31,193 bases of DNA from a virus. Location: the IMG/VR virus record IMGVR_UViG_3300021962_000416, positions 1-31,193 of that record; one strand, written 5' to 3'. How positions within the stretch are numbered: the first letter of the stretch is position 1; every line of letters begins with the position of its first letter. The notes below the pieces were generated by a model. It was not told where the DNA came from. It saw only the letters and a list, made by a program, of their open reading frames with translations, and searched no databases. Position numbers and translations under genes: made by a program. This document shows, piece after piece, positions 25,113 through 31,193 of the stretch.

Positions 25113-27557
25113 TTAGGCAAAAAAGAACTCACTATTTGTTAATTGTTGAATATCTAAATTACCTTTTTCAGGTACTTCAGGTATTTTCTCATGTAGTTCA
25201 ACAGGTAATTGTTTAAGTACATCATTTCTAAAATTAGCTAATATGTCATGTTCAGTAAACATGGTAACAAAAGCTTCTCTTAAAGATTTGTTAAGCACTT
25301 CAACATCACCAGCAGTGGTACCAAAGCTGTCATGTACATTGCAGAAATTAGTAATACCATTTTTATATGCGATATTAACTGTTTCCATCATTGCAGCACT
25401 GTCAACACTGTGTACAACATTAGGTGCAACCCCATTGCCCATTCTTAGTTTGTCTGTTTTGTCTGTCTCTGTGTTAATTCTGGGTTTAATAACTTCACCC
25501 ATTAACATTGCCTTAACCCTTTTTGATTTCATTTCAGGATAAGATTGATACACAGGAAAACCAACAGGCGTTACCCAATGCACTGGCAATTGTTCTTTAG
25601 CCACTACTCTTGCAATAGTCTGTAAATAATTCATACCAATTCTCGCTGATTTTAAATTATCACCAATACTATCCCAAATTACACTAGCTAAATAACTAGC
25701 TGGCCTGAAAACATCATCAGTAAATGGATGGTCTTCACCTTTGTCTTTTCTTTTAGTTAAATCTTCAACAACAAAATCAGTGCATGAATATCTTGTTGAA
25801 CCATAACAAATAGTCATAATACTTCTTTTGGTAGTTGAACGTTTAATACCATAATCTAACCACTGTTTTGCATACAAGTTACCATCAGCAGCATCTACTT
25901 TTAATTTTTCAATTACAGCATCAGCAACTAATTGATAAATGTCTTGTGGTTTATCAGTAGGTATTAAATTAACTAACTTTCCAGCTTTTGCATCTCTAAG
26001 CATTAAAGAATAAATTTGAAGTCCATTACATGAACCATCAACGTTAACTGGAATTTGTGAAACAAATCCATAACCTTGTTCTTTAAATCTTTTCCACTCA
26101 TCACAAAATGCAAGAAATTGAAAAGCATTAGAAGCTTCTTCCCATTGTCTATTTGACATAGGGTCATTAGCACAAGCAATAATCATTTGCTCGTTATCTT
26201 TTACCCATTGTTCTCTGTCTTCAAGAGATATTTTATCTTCACCATACATGTTGGCACCATGTACAGCAAGCCAAAATGCACCTTTGTTTTCTTCTGTTAA
26301 AGGTTTGCCGTGTGCAAAAGACAATAAAGCTTTAGCACCAGATATACTCTGATAATTTAAAAATGCAGGCACACAATAAGCTCTTCCTCTAAAATCTAAT
26401 TGTAAAGGAAAATATAAAGTTGCATAATCTTTAAATTTATCAGCAAGCCACATAATTTTTGCGTACAATAAACGCTTAGAAAACATTCTAGCATTCTCTG
26501 TGTGTGCCATAACAGCCTGTTTCTTCCAAGCTTTACGACTTTCAACATTACTATCAATGTCATGTGGTTTGTTTGGTATTTCATAATTAGTAATAGGCGG
26601 CATACCACCAATTGCTAATCCTTTATCCCATGCTTCCTGCATAATTTTTAAAATAAACTTATTAATTTTAAAAGGCGTATTTTGCATAAGATTAACTGCA
26701 TTATACACTTTTGGCATATCAAAATTCTCAAGTTCTTTTTTAAATAACTTGTTTTTTTGTTTAACCAAATCCAACTCAGGAAGTTCTTTAGTCCAATATC
26801 CGCCGCCAGTTACTGTTGACCACATTTTAGGTGGCATAACTGTAGGTAAATATTCAGGATTTAATAATTCGTTAAATTGATTACGATTATTAATCCAGTC
26901 TCTGGTTTTTTGTGTTTGTTTTATAATTTTAGCTTTTTTATGGTTAATGGTTTCGGTACCAATTTCAATCATACCAGTAGCCATAATCATAAGCTCAACT
27001 AATCTAAGACCAACATGCAATTTAACAGGCGTACTCCATTCTTCCCAACTAACTACACTACGTTTTGCACTCTCTTTTAGTTTTCTTCTTTTGTATGTGT
27101 AATTAAATGACCTTTTATCTAAATCACTTTTAACTGTATCATATAATTCAGGATTCAAAAATTTGAAATTCCTCAAAGCTATTTCAGTCTCAACTTTACC
27201 GCCAAGCGATATGCAAGTGGCAGTTAAAGGTTTATACTGTGTAATAGTATTAATGATATGTTTACCAGTAATCAAAGCAAGTATTTCAGGCTCAACTTCA
27301 CACATTTTAGTAAACGCAATAGATGGTTTACCAATGGTTTGTTTTGATTGTTCTTCTACCCATTCAGCAATAGCCATTGCCAATGGTCTTATAGTGTTGG
27401 CAACCATGACTTTGCCATAACTGGTTACACTCTCTTCTTCACGTTCAATGTGTGAATGAAGTCTTTTATTTGTTCTATTCTTACCCAATGCAGCCATTTC
27501 TTTTTCATGTGCAAGCTCATCAGTATAAGTCGGCATACTCTCAATTAATTTAGCCAA
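25113..27557 (-). CDS. T7-type single-subunit RNA polymerase
   Basis: An 814-residue polymerase (T7 is 883). Catalytic residues: D507 in VDGSCNG (T7 D537), K577 and Y585 in TTKRSIMTICYGS (K631, Y639), and D743 in HDSFG (D812), with exactly 71 residues from the last Asp to the end, as in T7. D388-F-R-G-R matches the DWRGR segment. The protein ends E-F-F-F-A, like the F-A-F-A foot of T7. The specificity loop region (about 679-706) differs greatly from T7, which fits the non-T7 promoter family seen in this window. It is preceded by its own promoter-like site at 27596-27615, so it may activate itself. Confidence 0.99.
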   Translation of the reverse strand: MAKLIESMPTYTDELAHEKEMAALGKNRTNKRLHSHIEREEESVTSYGKVMVANTIRPLAMAIAEWVEEQSKQTIGKPSIAFTKMCEVEPEILALITGKHIINTITQYKPLTATCISLGGKVETEIALRNFKFLNPELYDTVKSDLDKRSFNYTYKRRKLKESAKRSVVSWEEWSTPVKLHVGLRLVELMIMATGMIEIGTETINHKKAKIIKQTQKTRDWINNRNQFNELLNPEYLPTVMPPKMWSTVTGGGYWTKELPELDLVKQKNKLFKKELENFDMPKVYNAVNLMQNTPFKINKFILKIMQEAWDKGLAIGGMPPITNYEIPNKPHDIDSNVESRKAWKKQAVMAHTENARMFSKRLLYAKIMWLADKFKDYATLYFPLQLDFRGRAYCVPAFLNYQSISGAKALLSFAHGKPLTEENKGAFWLAVHGANMYGEDKISLEDREQWVKDNEQMIIACANDPMSNRQWEEASNAFQFLAFCDEWKRFKEQGYGFVSQIPVNVDGSCNGLQIYSLMLRDAKAGKLVNLIPTDKPQDIYQLVADAVIEKLKVDAADGNLYAKQWLDYGIKRSTTKRSIMTICYGSTRYSCTDFVVEDLTKRKDKGEDHPFTDDVFRPASYLASVIWDSIGDNLKSARIGMNYLQTIARVVAKEQLPVHWVTPVGFPVYQSYPEMKSKRVKAMLMGEVIKPRINTETDKTDKLRMGNGVAPNVVHSVDSAAMMETVNIAYKNGITNFCNVHDSFGTTAGDVEVLNKSLREAFVTMFTEHDILANFRNDVLKQLPVELHEKIPEVPEKGNLDIQQLTNSEFFFA

Positions 27558-28200: not shown

Positions 28201-28776
28201 CTATTTTTTAAAGTAATTTTTAAAGTATTGACCCTGAATAATAAAAGGTTTTGTTTTATATTTAGTATCAATTTCTAACACACGCAATTTAAGCAAGTTA
28301 TTAAGCTGCCTATTAATAGAACCAGCGTTAAACTGTGGGTATTTGTCTCTAAGTTTAGCCAATAAAGGTTTTTTCTTAAATGGCACATTCTCAAAAACAA
28401 ATCTCATTATACATTGTTGAATATCAATTTTATCATCCTGTTTAATTACTTTATTAGGAAGAAATTGAATATCAGACAATTTATATTTAAGATTTAAAGC
28501 AGCCCATCTGGCAACAGATGTTGTTTCACTATAATTAGTGTAAACAAACTTAGCCTCTTCATAATCTAAAACTTTAATAACAATGTTTTTATATTTGTTA
28601 AAATCAGCTTCAGATACGCCAGCAGCAGCATAATCACAAACATTTACATTCCAGTAATTAGATAGTTTTTTATTTACTGTATCATAAAAAATTATATCTT
28701 TATCAGACAAAAAACGCCGTCTAGTCTCTATATTATCTATAAATGCACTTCTAACATAAAAATCAGTAGAACTCAT
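28201..28776 (-). CDS. Early protein with winged-helix-like C-terminus, function unknown
   Basis: A 191-residue, Lys/Asn/Tyr-rich protein starting MSSTDFYVRSAFIDNIETRR. The last 65 residues look like a winged helix: L-L-A-K-L-R-D-K-Y, a turn, then FNAGSINRQLNNLLKLRVLE and a two-strand wing (about residues 137-180). It lies shortly before the RNA polymerase gene among early genes, with AAGGAG upstream, so a DNA-binding regulator of early transcription is possible, but this is inference. The N-terminal 120 residues resemble nothing I recognise. Confidence 0.75.
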   Translation of the reverse strand: MSSTDFYVRSAFIDNIETRRRFLSDKDIIFYDTVNKKLSNYWNVNVCDYAAAGVSEADFNKYKNIVIKVLDYEEAKFVYTNYSETTSVARWAALNLKYKLSDIQFLPNKVIKQDDKIDIQQCIMRFVFENVPFKKKPLLAKLRDKYPQFNAGSINRQLNNLLKLRVLEIDTKYKTKPFIIQGQYFKNYFKK

Positions 28777-28822: not shown

Positions 28823-28873
28823 GCAACAAACTAGGCACACCAATGGCGTACCTAGTTTATACCACAATGTTGC
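28823..28873 (-). ncRNA. Structured intercistronic RNA element with ribozyme-like outer stem
   Basis: On the minus strand GCAACA (starting within the TAG stop of the upstream gene) pairs with TGTTGC at the other end, the same stem sequence as in the hammerhead at 29144-29201. Inside is a long hairpin, AACTAGGTACGCC with a matching strand ending GTGCCTAGTT (about 12 bp with two G-U pairs), and a 10-nt unpaired stretch TTGTGGTATA on the 5' side. CTGATGA and GAAA are absent, so it is not a standard hammerhead. It could be a terminator, a processing hairpin, or another or decayed ribozyme. Confidence 0.5.
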
Positions 28874-29088
28874 TATTTGTTTTCTCTGGTGTCAATTGTC
28901 ACGGTAACCATGACAGACCCACAAAAGCGGTGGTGGTGGTCTTCATTCAAATTATCCAAAAATTTTGCAAAATCTCTGGCTGTTATACCGTCATTGAATT
29001 TGAACTCATGCGTTGTAATTGTAAAAGGCTTATTGTTTTTGTCGTATTCATCACCTAAAACGTTAATTACTGCATTGTCTATATACAT
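28873..29088 (-). CDS. Small early protein, 71 aa, function unknown
   Basis: Starting at ATG 29088 the protein begins MYIDNAVINVLGDEYDKNNK and ends TVTIDTRENK. It contains F-A-K-F-L-D-N-L followed by the His cluster E-D-H-H-H-R-F, and looks like a small alpha/beta protein. The start is chosen over an upstream ATG (29121) because GGAGC lies about 7 nt before it. The gene follows the hammerhead at 29144-29201, whose cleavage would give it its own 62-nt leader, and it is followed at once by another structured RNA. Function unknown. Confidence 0.7.
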   Translation of the reverse strand: MYIDNAVINVLGDEYDKNNKPFTITTHEFKFNDGITARDFAKFLDNLNEDHHHRFCGSVMVTVTIDTRENK

Positions 29089-29117
29089 AATTATTGCTCC
29101 TGTTTGTTTGTTAATTA

Positions 29118-29148
29118 GCAATATAAATTGCCAAGTTGCTTATGCAAC
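29118..29148 (-). other. Two small leader hairpins downstream of the ribozyme cut site
   Basis: After cleavage the RNA would start UGUUGC. The GTTGC of this end can pair with GCAAC four nt later (29148-29135), and a second hairpin GCAAT/ATTGC follows (29131-29118). Both lie before the ribosome binding site of the 71-codon gene. The first one uses the same strand that forms ribozyme stem I, so the two folds exclude each other. Confidence 0.6.
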
Positions 29149-29201
29149 AGACACCGCCTTTGTGACGGTGTTTCGACTATTAAAAGTCTCATCAGTGTTG
29201 C
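29144..29201 (-). ncRNA. Hammerhead ribozyme, type I
   Basis: On the minus strand: stem I strand GCAACA; core CTGATGA; stem II GACT-TTTAAT-AGTC; core GAAA; stem III from ACACCG to CGGTGT with an A-rich loop; cleavage triplet GTC; stem I strand TGTTGC. All invariant hammerhead core bases (C3, U4-G5-A6, G8-A9, G12-A13-A14, A15.1-U16.1, C17) are present. Ends lie in stem I, hence type I. Predicted cut is between the nucleotides opposite plus-strand 29150 and 29149. It starts 2 nt after the stop of the 132-codon gene and precedes the 71-codon gene. Confidence 0.92.
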
Positions 29202-29203
29202 TA

Positions 29204-29602
29204 TTAGTGGCCAGCTTTAGAGTAACCAGCATTTAACTTAATACGCTCAGCAAGCCTGCTGTTTCTGAACTCAGCGTCTTTTTTTTCTTTTAGGATGTCA
29301 TTAACAGCTATTACAGCGTTGCGGTGTCCTTGCTCCATTTGTAACAATTTTTCAGCAAACTGTTTTGAATTAACCCTCTTAGACTTTGCCAGCAAGTCTC
29401 CACCGTCAATTGCATTTAAGTGGGCTCCAGTGGTATTACCCCAAATATTATCTTGAATTACAAGGCCTGTACTAACTGAATTAAAAGCAATACAAGTATT
29501 ATAAGACATATAAAACGTTGTATTTAAGCTTTCAATATAAATTGCTTTATTGTTATTGCCTCTGGCATAATTCCAGATTTTAATAGGTGTTTCGTTTGTC
29601 AT
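29204..29602 (-). CDS. Early protein, 132 aa, function unknown
   Basis: From ATG 29602 the protein begins MTNETPIKIWNYARGNNNKA. It contains Y-I-E-S-L-N-T-T-F-Y-M-S-Y-N-T-C-I-A-F and NIWGNTTGAHLNAIDGG (about 55-71), then a Lys/Glu-rich helix near 90-118. The middle segment (strand, S-Y-x-T-x-I-A-F, W-x-x-T-T-x-x-H-L) resembles small uncharacterised proteins in cyanophages, but I cannot name a family with certainty. The start at 29602 rather than 29617 is favoured by GGAG 9 nt upstream. It lies between two hammerhead ribozymes, so cleavage would leave it as a single-gene mRNA. Confidence 0.75.
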   Translation of the reverse strand: MTNETPIKIWNYARGNNNKAIYIESLNTTFYMSYNTCIAFNSVSTGLVIQDNIWGNTTGAHLNAIDGGDLLAKSKRVNSKQFAEKLLQMEQGHRNAVIAVNDILKEKKDAEFRNSRLAERIKLNAGYSKAGH

Positions 29603-29628
29603 AGTATTTAACTCCATTGTTTGTTTGT

Positions 29629-29644
29629 TATTGCGTATGCAATA
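29629..29644 (-). other. 5'-end hairpin released by ribozyme cleavage
   Basis: The RNA left after cleavage starts UAUUGC-AUAC-GCAAUA, a perfect 6-bp hairpin beginning at the first nucleotide. The UAUUGC strand is also the 3' strand of ribozyme stem I, so the hairpin and stem I are alternative folds. The ribosome binding site of the 132-codon gene follows. Confidence 0.65.
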
Positions 29645-29694
29645 GACACCGCCGTGAAGCGGTGTTTCGGCCTGTTAGGCCTCATCAGTATTGC
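29639..29694 (-). ncRNA. Hammerhead ribozyme, type I
   Basis: On the minus strand: stem I GCAATA; core CTGATGA; stem II GGCC-TAACA-GGCC; core GAAA; stem III ACACCGC-TTCACG-GCGGTGT (7 bp); cleavage triplet GTC; stem I TATTGC. The core is complete and all three stems are perfect. Predicted cut is between the nucleotides opposite plus-strand 29645 and 29644. Its first base directly follows the TAA stop of the 45-codon gene. It shares core and stem III sequence with the copy at 29144-29201 but differs in stem II, with matching base changes that keep pairing. Confidence 0.95.
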
Positions 29695-29832
29695 TTAAAT
29701 GTTATAATTGTAACGTTTATTTAAAATAAATAATAAACGATAATAACGTTTTAAATCACTCACACCGTAACAGTCACTATCAATTATACATGAATGTAAT
29801 TGTTTATATTCTTTTAATATTTTTTTAAACAT
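29695..29832 (-). CDS. Small early protein, 45 aa, function unknown
   Basis: The frame encodes MFKKILKEYKQLHSCIIDSD, then CYGVSDLKRYY and ends LNKRYNYNI. It is basic and Tyr-rich with a short apolar stretch (RLLFIL) that is too short for a membrane helix. AAGGAG lies about 8 nt before the ATG and the start is 16 nt after the stop of the upstream 115-codon gene. The stop touches the hammerhead at 29639-29694. Small basic early proteins in T7-like phages often bind host enzymes, but nothing here identifies the target. Confidence 0.7.
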   Translation of the reverse strand: MFKKILKEYKQLHSCIIDSDCYGVSDLKRYYRLLFILNKRYNYNI

Positions 29833-29847
29833 TGTTTTTACTCCTTT

Positions 29848-30195
29848 TTAGGGTTTCGCTGGGCTTGGTCTCGATTGTACCGCAAACGGTGGCTTTACAT
29901 CATCAACAAAGGCCTTGCCGTCAATTGAATAATAAACGGCTAATTGTCCAGCCTCTAATGCGTATTTTTTTGCAATGTCAACTAATATGGACACCTTAGC
30001 ACCGTTTATAGCTGTTTCATAAATTTTTATTGGCTCATCATAAACAACGCCGTCACTGTACCAAACGCCTTGGCCGTCTGTTATTGTACAGCCTGAAAAA
30101 ACAGTTACAATTTCAGTTTTAAGACGTGCATGCAATGAAGTTAGTGCAACGCCGTCATTGTTATTAATAGGCATGTTTATTTTGCATATTATCAT
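29848..30195 (-). CDS. Early protein, 115 aa, function unknown
   Basis: From ATG 30195 the protein begins MIICKINMPINNNDGVALTS and contains W-Y-S-D-G-V-V-Y-D-E-P-I-K-I-Y-E-T-A and K-K-Y-A-L-E-A-G-Q-L-A-V-Y-Y-S-I-D-G-K-A-F. The pattern of strands around one helix suggests a small alpha/beta domain; the DxPxKxYE and AGQxAVYY parts look conserved but I cannot name the family. A longer start at 30303 is rejected because it would lie inside the 55-codon gene; the chosen start follows that gene's stop by one base, giving coupled translation. It is GC-richer than its neighbours. Confidence 0.72.
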   Translation of the reverse strand: MIICKINMPINNNDGVALTSLHARLKTEIVTVFSGCTITDGQGVWYSDGVVYDEPIKIYETAINGAKVSILVDIAKKYALEAGQLAVYYSIDGKAFVDDVKPPFAVQSRPSPAKP

Positions 30196-30196
30196 A

Positions 30197-30364
30197 TTAT
30201 AACCACCCTTCTTTGTTTGCTTTTCTAAGCATCTCAATTTTTTTGTTTTTGTCTGTTTCTTTTTGATAAGCATTAAAAAACGCTTGTTTTGCAGTATTGT
30301 CAATATATTGCTCTTTATGTCGTTGGGCGTACATATTTTGCACTGCTTTGTTAATTGTAGGCAT
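30197..30364 (-). CDS. Small early protein, 55 aa, function unknown
   Basis: The frame encodes MPTINKAVQNMYAQRHKEQY, then IDNTAKQAFFNAYQKETDKN and ends RKANKEGWL. It looks like one or two amphipathic helices rich in Lys, Gln and Asn, with no membrane segment. AGGAGC lies about 7 nt before the ATG, right next to the 3' strand of stem III of the hammerhead at 30382-30439. It is the first recognisable gene of the early transcript. No family recognised. Confidence 0.7.
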   Translation of the reverse strand: MPTINKAVQNMYAQRHKEQYIDNTAKQAFFNAYQKETDKNKKIEMLRKANKEGWL

Positions 30365-30381
30365 TGTTATTGCTCCTATAT

Positions 30382-30439
30382 TGTTTGTTTCGCTCTATGC
30401 TGTGAGCTCATCAGTCATATATGTAATATGAGACAAACA
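30382..30439 (-). ncRNA. Hammerhead ribozyme, type III
   Basis: On the minus strand: stem III strand TGTTTGT with cleavage triplet GTC; stem I hairpin TCATAT-TACAT-ATATGA; core CTGATGA; stem II GCTC-ACAGCATA-GAGC; core GAAA; stem III strand ACAAACA (7 bp). The core is complete and all stems pair perfectly. Ends lie in stem III, hence type III, unlike the two type I copies. Predicted cut is between the nucleotides opposite plus-strand 30432 and 30431, so the downstream RNA starts with the stem I hairpin. The ribosome binding site of the 55-codon gene follows stem III within about 5 nt. Confidence 0.92.
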
Positions 30440-30540
30440 GCACCCGTAACAGCTAAAAGCCCGCTGGTGCGTTCTATGTGGGTTTTCCAGTCGCTTAGAA
30501 ACTATCTCAAAGGTATTAAAACCTAAGGCGGTGGCACTAG
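30440..30540 (-). ncRNA. GC-richer island, possible structured leader RNA
   Basis: Roughly half G+C in a region otherwise very AT-rich, with no open frame. On the minus strand GCACC can pair with GGTGC about 20 nt later, with an inner CAGC/GCTG, and AGGT/ACCT forms a small hairpin. The composition suggests selection on RNA structure. It directly precedes the type III hammerhead. No known RNA family was recognised. Confidence 0.35.
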
Positions 30541-30680
30541 ATTTTTATATGTGTTTAAAGTCCGTAAAAATCAACAAAAATGAGACTTAAAAGCATAATA
30601 CATATTTAAAACTAATATGCAACAGTTATTACAAAGAAATAAACAATACTATTCAATTACTTATTGTCTATTTAAATAAT

Positions 30681-30719
30681 AAAAAAACAGGCATAACCAT
30701 TAAAACCATAGTTATGACC
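30681..30719 (-). terminator. Terminator-like hairpin in early leader
   Basis: On the minus strand GGTCATAAC pairs with GTTATGCC (8 bp with one bulged T, 13-nt loop) and is followed by TGTTTTTTTATT. It lies between the promoter-like site at 30881-30900 and the first early gene, so it could act as an attenuator. The stem is weak in GC. Confidence 0.35.
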
Positions 30720-30780
30720 ATTAATTATTACTAATAGATAATAATAAATAAGATAATAACAAATAGTTAACCAAGGTAAG

Positions 30781-30816
30781 ACCAGAGATAACCAGAGATA
30801 ACCAGAGATAACCAGA
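30781..30816. repeat. 10-bp tandem repeat, 3.6 copies
   Basis: ACCAGAGATA is repeated three times without change, followed by a partial copy ACCAGA. It lies in the noncoding leader about 65 nt from a promoter-like site. It could be a protein-binding array near the genome end; no function is evident. Confidence 0.9.
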
Positions 30817-30880
30817 ATAATACAAGTATATCACTTATCATTATTACTTATATACTATACACATAGCTTAACACTGTTTA

Positions 30881-30900
30881 CACTAATACGGGAACCTTAA
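30881..30900 (-). promoter_or_regulatory. Candidate phage promoter at the start of the early region
   Basis: The minus strand reads TTAAGGTTCCCGTATTAGTG, a full member of the nTAARGTnCCCnTnnTAGn family. It is the rightmost copy and would let the phage polymerase transcribe the early genes and the hammerhead elements as well. Confidence 0.65.
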
Positions 30901-30907
30901 TATATAT

Positions 30908-31007
30908 TGTATGTGTGCTGTGTGTATTATACCATATGTTGTATGCCTATATATTGTGTGTGTGCTTGTTTATATACCATATGTTGTATGTGTGTGCTGT
31001 GTGTATT
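30908..31007. repeat. GT-rich imperfect direct repeat
   Basis: Two copies of TATACCATATGTTGTATG (30928-30945 and 30973-30990) and two of GTGTGCTGTGTGTATT (30913-30928 and 30992-31007) are interleaved. The segment is strongly strand-biased in G and T on the plus strand. It does not encode a credible protein. Confidence 0.8.
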
Positions 31008-31075
31008 CTATGCGTAGGCTAAAGGTAAAAAAACAGACAAGCTCAAACACACGCCAAAATAAAATAAACCCTATG

Positions 31076-31146
31076 TTTGCCCTGTGTGCCCTGCGTTATG
31101 CCTATAATATGCCTTAATGTTGCCCTTTATGTCCCTGTGTGCCTTC
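31076..31146. repeat. Array of short TGCCYT-type words near the right end
   Basis: TGCCCT, TGCCTA, TGCCTT, TGCCCT, GTCCCT and TGCCTT occur at 8-18 nt spacing in about 70 nt. T7 carries arrays of short degenerate repeats beside its terminal redundancy, so this may mark proximity to the genome end. Evidence is limited to the sequence pattern and position. Confidence 0.5.
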
Positions 31147-31193
31147 ATTTTAGGCCACTTAAAGGGATGCCACGGGGGAAACCGCCCAGCCCG

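Follow-up and report, generated by a model that had tools for sequence, protein, structure and literature searches.

Hammerhead ribozymes at the early gene junctions of a T7-like, Pelagivirus-related phage probably (we would put it at about 0.64) belong to end-forming cassettes made only of RNA, which cut the early transcript into messages with hairpin-capped, decay-resistant ends. The motif, its placement, the hairpins, the covariation, and the enrichment on which this reading is built are properties of the sequences themselves.

What hammerheads do in phages is a question as old as their discovery there. A hairpin rule would supply a specific and testable answer, the forming of message ends, and would account both for types I and II sitting on stop codons and for type III keeping a gap. 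Such a rule can be checked in cultured SAR11 phages, and public RNA-Seq data exist for one of them, HTVC022P (PRJNA1253180). SAR11 and its phages rank among the most abundant marine life, and the synthetic RiboJ insulator has a natural counterpart in this layout.

Hammerheads in the early region

The DNA analyzed, here called the window, comprises the 31,193 nucleotides of IMG/VR record IMGVR_UViG_3300021962_000416. Its T7-like single-subunit RNA polymerase shares 85% identity with the polymerase of the pelagiphage Eistla. The genes of the window lie on the minus strand, and thus the early region is at the right end. Read from there, the ribozymes and genes are as follows.

30382 to 30439, minus strand: type III hammerhead, predicted cut 30432/30431 (RF00008, 42.6 bits, E 7.8e-8)
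30197 to 30364, minus strand: ORF of 55 aa, the first early gene, starting 67 nt past the cut, with GGAG upstream
29848 to 30195, minus strand: ORF of 115 aa, function unknown (phrog_3543, E 4.4e-10)
29695 to 29832, minus strand: ORF of 45 aa, its TAA directly adjoining stem I of the next ribozyme
29639 to 29694, minus strand: type I hammerhead, predicted cut 29645/29644 (RF03152, 27.8 bits, E 0.87)
29204 to 29602, minus strand: ORF of 132 aa (weak phrog_5643 match, E 1.9e-4), ending 2 nt before the third ribozyme
29144 to 29201, minus strand: type I hammerhead, predicted cut 29150/29149 (RF03152, 33.9 bits, E 0.04)
28873 to 29088, minus strand: ORF of 71 aa, its TAG overlapping the first base of a fourth element
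28201 to 28776, minus strand: ORF of 191 aa, without family match
25113 to 27557, minus strand: T7-like single-subunit RNA polymerase, the lineage marker (phrog_414, E 1.3e-261)

A preliminary description of this DNA had pointed to three hammerheads, one of type III and two of type I, and their cores, stems, and cut sites confirm them as canonical copies (in the order III, I, I, on the minus strand). The core was defined as CUGANGA ... GAAA, with U16.1 and with H17 not G. All three carry CUGAUGA, CGAAA, and GUC, and stems I/II/III around the core measure 6/4/7, 6/5/8, and 6/4/8 bp. Rfam scores fall below the gathering scores, at 42.6 bits versus 48.5 for Hammerhead_3 (RF00008) on the type III copy and, in a whole-window scan, at 33.9 and 27.8 bits versus 56.3 for RAGATH-1-hammerhead (RF03152) on the type I copies. 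A structural hammerhead descriptor gave no match in 300 Markov-randomized windows and none in 883 kb of SAR11 DNA. Judging from the motif, it is near certain that the three window hammerheads would cleave themselves. The order of stop codon, ribozyme, hairpin, ribosome-binding site, and start codon, previously described as recurring, fits both type I copies; the type III copy precedes the first early gene, and upstream of it no ORF reaches 60 aa. Scans for promoters and terminators in the early region yielded nothing exceeding shuffled background, and a search of genome contigs for prophage relatives of the phage RNA polymerase confirmed none.

Hammerhead arrays or copies are also found in related viral contigs and in the cultured SAR11 phages Eistla, HTVC142P, HTVC168P, HTVC031P, HTVC109P, and HTVC019P; across the whole genomes of Eistla, HTVC142P, and HTVC022P, the credible matches are located in the early region, and the cut predicted for HTVC022P (MH598798) falls at 2353/2354. 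Within the pelagiphage-type set, type III comes first in the array 43 times and later 5 times, all 5 being second after another type III. Most of those in first position have no ORF of at least 60 aa upstream, and those in second position are preceded by a small gene and then a GC-rich hairpin. That type III always comes first was rejected as a general rule, since it is first 6 times and later 7 times in a broad phage sample. Two arrays may be recorded here for their own sake: nine type II hammerheads stand in a row on the minus strand over about 4.5 kb of one phage contig (L364), and a tRNA gene lies downstream of the array in a pelagiphage-like contig (L108, 1442 to 1512).

Hairpins at the predicted message ends

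Hammerhead cleavage leaves a 2′,3′-cyclic phosphate on the upstream product and a 5′-OH on the downstream product. The preliminary description pointed to a hairpin at the 5′ end of the downstream product; the 3′ hairpin of the upstream product, which it did not mention, turns out to be the more constant of the two. For the two type I copies of the window, sequence and fold predict it as follows.

29646 to 29665, minus strand: closed stem III, which after cleavage would end the upstream message as a 3′-terminal hairpin plus a 1-nt tail
29151 to 29171, minus strand: closed stem III, after cleavage the 3′-terminal hairpin of the upstream message

Almost every type I and II hammerhead of the pelagiphage-type contigs begins no more than about 16 nt from an ORF stop, the stop often being inside stem I, and the distance from cut to ATG is mostly 29 to 65 nt for type I and 50 to 80 nt for type II. 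Because these types sit at the stop codon, the upstream message would end in their closed stem III, a 3′ hairpin followed by a 1-nt tail. Type III has an open stem III, and thus its own fold gives the upstream message no 3′ hairpin. Where type III follows a gene, a separate hairpin with a dG of −10 or lower lies between stop and ribozyme in 33/38 cases (24/28 in the set in which the pattern was noticed and 9/10 among other type III sequences fetched later), many of them in shared families, so that the independent cases are fewer. The same kind of hairpin occurs in 63 of 600 post-stop segments (10.5%), an approximate control drawn from mixed phages with terminators included. Neither the first nor the later sets contain a type III copy with an ORF of at least 60 aa ending within 10 nt of it. 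We considered and rejected the possibility that the hairpins before type III are intrinsic terminators, as most of their tails are not U-rich; the exception is one family (L563 and L574), in which the hairpin is terminator-like and has a U run. As far as these sequences go, the 3′ hairpin on the upstream side is a near-constant element of the cassette design.

One might object that these are simply phage hammerhead arrays of the known kind, which cut the transcript and whose hairpins are mere by-products of the fold or of repeats. Closed stems are indeed inherent in the hammerhead fold, and passages of an earlier paper (PMC3088659) already described clusters flanking single genes and proposed a role in processing in 2011. 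Closure of stem III belongs to the type I and II fold regardless of its use, which leaves the type III comparison as the one test of the 3′ rule; there, the excess of an additional hairpin not required by the fold speaks against the objection. The downstream products bear on it as well.

Each of the three predicted 3′ products folds into a hairpin from nucleotide 1 or 2 onward, and the type I products of the window do so by using a third stem I strand copy just downstream; both points were noticed previously and hold up. For the type III product, the hairpin UCAUAU-UACAU-AUAUGA is its own closed stem I (30431 to 30415), at the 5′ end of the first message. Those of the type I products are listed below.

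29629 to 29644, minus strand: 5′-terminal product hairpin UAUUGC-AUAC-GCAAUA of the first type I copy, formed with the additional stem I strand downstream
29115 to 29148, minus strand: product hairpin GUUGC-AUAA-GCAAC and a second hairpin, from the fold

The GUUGC-AUAA-GCAAC hairpin (29148 to 29135) begins at product nucleotide 2 (U-GUUGC), and the second hairpin comes directly after it (29134 to 29115).

With a product hairpin of at least 5 bp as the criterion, the downstream copy is present in 20 of 59 distinct type I products from relatives and pattern matches, compared with a mean of 2.9 and a maximum of 10 for shuffled tails; the sample was partly fetched by a pattern that fixed the stem I strand and not the downstream copy. 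Changes in stem I are mirrored by the copy in several families (GCAATA/TATTGC/GCAATA, GTAACA/TGTTAC/GTAACA, and GTAACA/TGTTGC/GCAAC). Stem I of one locus, L072, contains a G-U pair, and there it is the 3′ strand that the 5′ copy matches, which is again at odds with a by-product. Many type I copies standing last in their arrays in relatives have no downstream copy, and in the broad sample it accompanies 6 of 81 type I hammerheads against a null of 2.3, which is near background and is what the by-product view would lead one to expect outside the lineage. A survey of relatives, as had been called for, therefore finds the copy enriched and not general. One locus of the broad sample (L297) has a separate, clear downstream copy with a different stem I. 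Taking both ends together, we consider it unlikely that the hairpins are mere by-products.

Before cleavage, the hammerhead and the switched fold of both window type I copies are nearly isoenergetic, about 1 kcal/mol apart (for example, −24.1 and −25.2) in an energy model that excludes tertiary contacts, and a strand switch after cutting is therefore plausible. The same near-equality could point to a timer, in which competition between the downstream copy and stem I would silence molecules not cut soon after transcription, leaving a kinetic or translation-dependent period for cutting. Stop codons do lie in or beside stem I, and in 15 of the 81 type I hammerheads of the broad sample the position of the upstream ORF stop fits the UGA of the catalytic CUGAUGA; a ribosome terminating at such a stop should block folding. 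However, stem I is transcribed before the copy, cleavage by natural hammerheads can be fast, no comparable competitor exists in types II and III, and the energies come from a model omitting the tertiary contacts. We regard a timer as improbable.

Message decay and possibly exchangeable junctions

Under the end-forming reading, we envision that the cassette at a gene junction would cut itself during transcription or soon afterwards. The upstream message would be left with a terminal hairpin, a short tail, and a 2′,3′-cyclic phosphate; the hairpin would be the closed stem III for types I and II, and the separate one ahead of the ribozyme for a type III that follows a gene. The downstream message would be left with a 5′-OH, in many cases at the foot of a hairpin, which would be inherent in types II and III and, in type I of this lineage, would come from the extra downstream copy of stem I. 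The strand switch should free the product and hinder religation. In general, decay from the 3′ side is hindered where a message ends in a hairpin and a phosphate. The likely purpose would be to divide a single early polycistron into individual messages that have defined ends and resist decay from both of them; a second would be to free a structured leader RNA at the first junction. Cleavage in vivo, stabilization, and timing are what we infer from the layout.

The host decay enzymes that such ends might resist have genes in SAR11: RNase E/G, RNase J-like enzymes (6 of 8 genomes), RNase III (7 of 10 genomes searched), and PNPase. The ribozymes are thus no stand-in for an absent RNase III, an idea that we rejected on this count; the motif does support the earlier proposal that ribozymes cut the early mRNA between genes. 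It had also been suggested that a 5′-OH within a hairpin would resist RNase E. Host RNases against which such hairpins could matter are encoded, but a 5′-OH alone would be unsafe where RNase J exists, given that the 5′-OH product of the glmS ribozyme is degraded by RNase J1 (PMC3997798). Like glmS, the window ribozymes are self-cleaving RNAs in mRNA that would leave a 5′-OH; unlike them, glmS is controlled by a metabolite and has no hairpin rule, and its cleavage leads to decay.

RiboJ, composed of the sTRSV hammerhead and a 23-nt hairpin, has the same order of ribozyme, hairpin, and ribosome-binding site as both window type I copies; it gives a defined 5′ end and raises transcript abundance about twofold in E. 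coli (PMC6206723). Unlike the window copies, it is engineered and makes use of the 5′ side only. The type I copies reuse the stem I strand and would also form the 3′ end of the preceding gene; the resemblance is one of analogy, not derivation.

The closest natural precedent is the work of Perreault et al. (2011), passages of which (PMC3088659) describe prophage hammerhead clusters that include all three types and place several copies around single genes or short blocks, and report that an Agrobacterium array cleaved both in vitro and when cloned in E. coli. In the window, too, several hammerheads of the same orientation flank individual genes; unlike those clusters, they lie in the early region of T7-like SAR11 phages. 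Those passages contain no end-hairpin rules, downstream strand-switch copy, or conserved leader RNA. The claim that the system had not been described must therefore give way as far as processing by phage hammerhead clusters is concerned, and for the hairpin layout it stands within the open literature covered. The open papers, a scope that leaves most subscription journals aside, gave no account of hairpin-capped ends, of a strand copy downstream, of arrays in pelagiphages, or of the leader, and on hammerheads in SAR11 phages or Autographiviridae they held one passing co-mention and no relevant paper.

The fourth junction, which the preliminary description passed over, carries a related element.

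28823 to 28873, minus strand: degenerate, core-less type I hammerhead that folds as a long hairpin (dG −25.7, z −6.1)

Stems I and III are retained, with about 10 nt in place of CUGAUGA, stem II, and GAAA. At the homologous junction, type I is intact in L004 (aligned with L007 and L008) and core-less in L005 and L006. Since the window has no core at this junction, cutting there would not be essential. In HTVC022P, HTVC131P, HTVC304P, HTVC201P, and Ran, a long imperfect hairpin occupies the type III position, and Eistla and HTVC105P have other long hairpins there; Rfam gave no convincing match on these elements of HTVC022P, Eistla, and HTVC105P. In cultured pelagiphages that lack a type III hammerhead, the long imperfect hairpins at this junction (L170, 510 to 580; L174; L164; L173; L175; L158, 8160 to 8290; L172, 475 to 625) have dG values of −23 to −48 and z of about −5, and they resemble RNase III sites. 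Such junctions suggest, without proving it, that ribozymes and RNase III-type hairpins may replace one another.

In T7, RNase III cuts the early mRNA between genes, with hairpins near the new ends. The early transcript would be cut between genes in both cases, here by the RNA itself. Three junctions of the window have hammerheads instead, long hairpins occur at the fourth junction and in sister phages, and the host enzyme is encoded. One can imagine that phage hammerheads in general are RNA-only gene-end devices, providing a 3′ hairpin and in some lineages a 5′ strand-switch hairpin, interchangeable with RNase III-type hairpins, and releasing an undescribed leader at the first junction. This wider proposal is tentative, and we lean slightly against it.

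The early leader RNA

The type III ribozyme would release a leader RNA at the first junction.

30432 to 30548, minus strand: early leader RNA of roughly 115 nt (the 5′ end is an estimate), which group alignments show to be conserved in relatives

In the 3′-terminal domain of a second leader group (nine related sequences), 9 of 9 pairs are changed on both sides and 100% of cells are paired; the domain boundaries and helices were chosen by the analyst on the sequences counted, which favors these figures, and the window sequence is outside the count. Shuffled and slid controls fall far below this pairing. The window leader carries what looks like a variant of the domain, GCACC-AGCGG-P3b-UGUUACG-GGUGC. 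RNAalifold returned weak consensus folds for whole-leader groups, and Rfam returned no match in 30380 to 31193 beyond the ribozyme, leaving the leader without an Rfam family.

These features invite the view that the released leader, or some other defined RNA end, is the main product and that message stabilization is secondary. A structured leader with covarying helices in relatives upstream of the first ribozyme fits that view, as does the scarcity of ORFs of at least 60 aa ahead of first-position type III copies. It leaves the later intergenic ribozymes and the post-stop hairpins unexplained, and we think it very improbable; the forming of message ends remains our preferred reading, with the leader as a further product.

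Two smaller observations concern the leaders. In the second group, an AAGGCGG/AGUAGGU internal loop lies between the covarying helices (L015, L035, L048, L072, L090, L097, L121, L134, and L139; also L174 at 509 and L175 at 6193). In others (L101, L102, L104, L114, L115, L040, L143, L095, L117, and L129), the type III stem III strand UGUUUGU has a potential pairing partner in an ACAAACA or ACAGACA copy lying upstream, an arrangement that mirrors the strand switch of type I.
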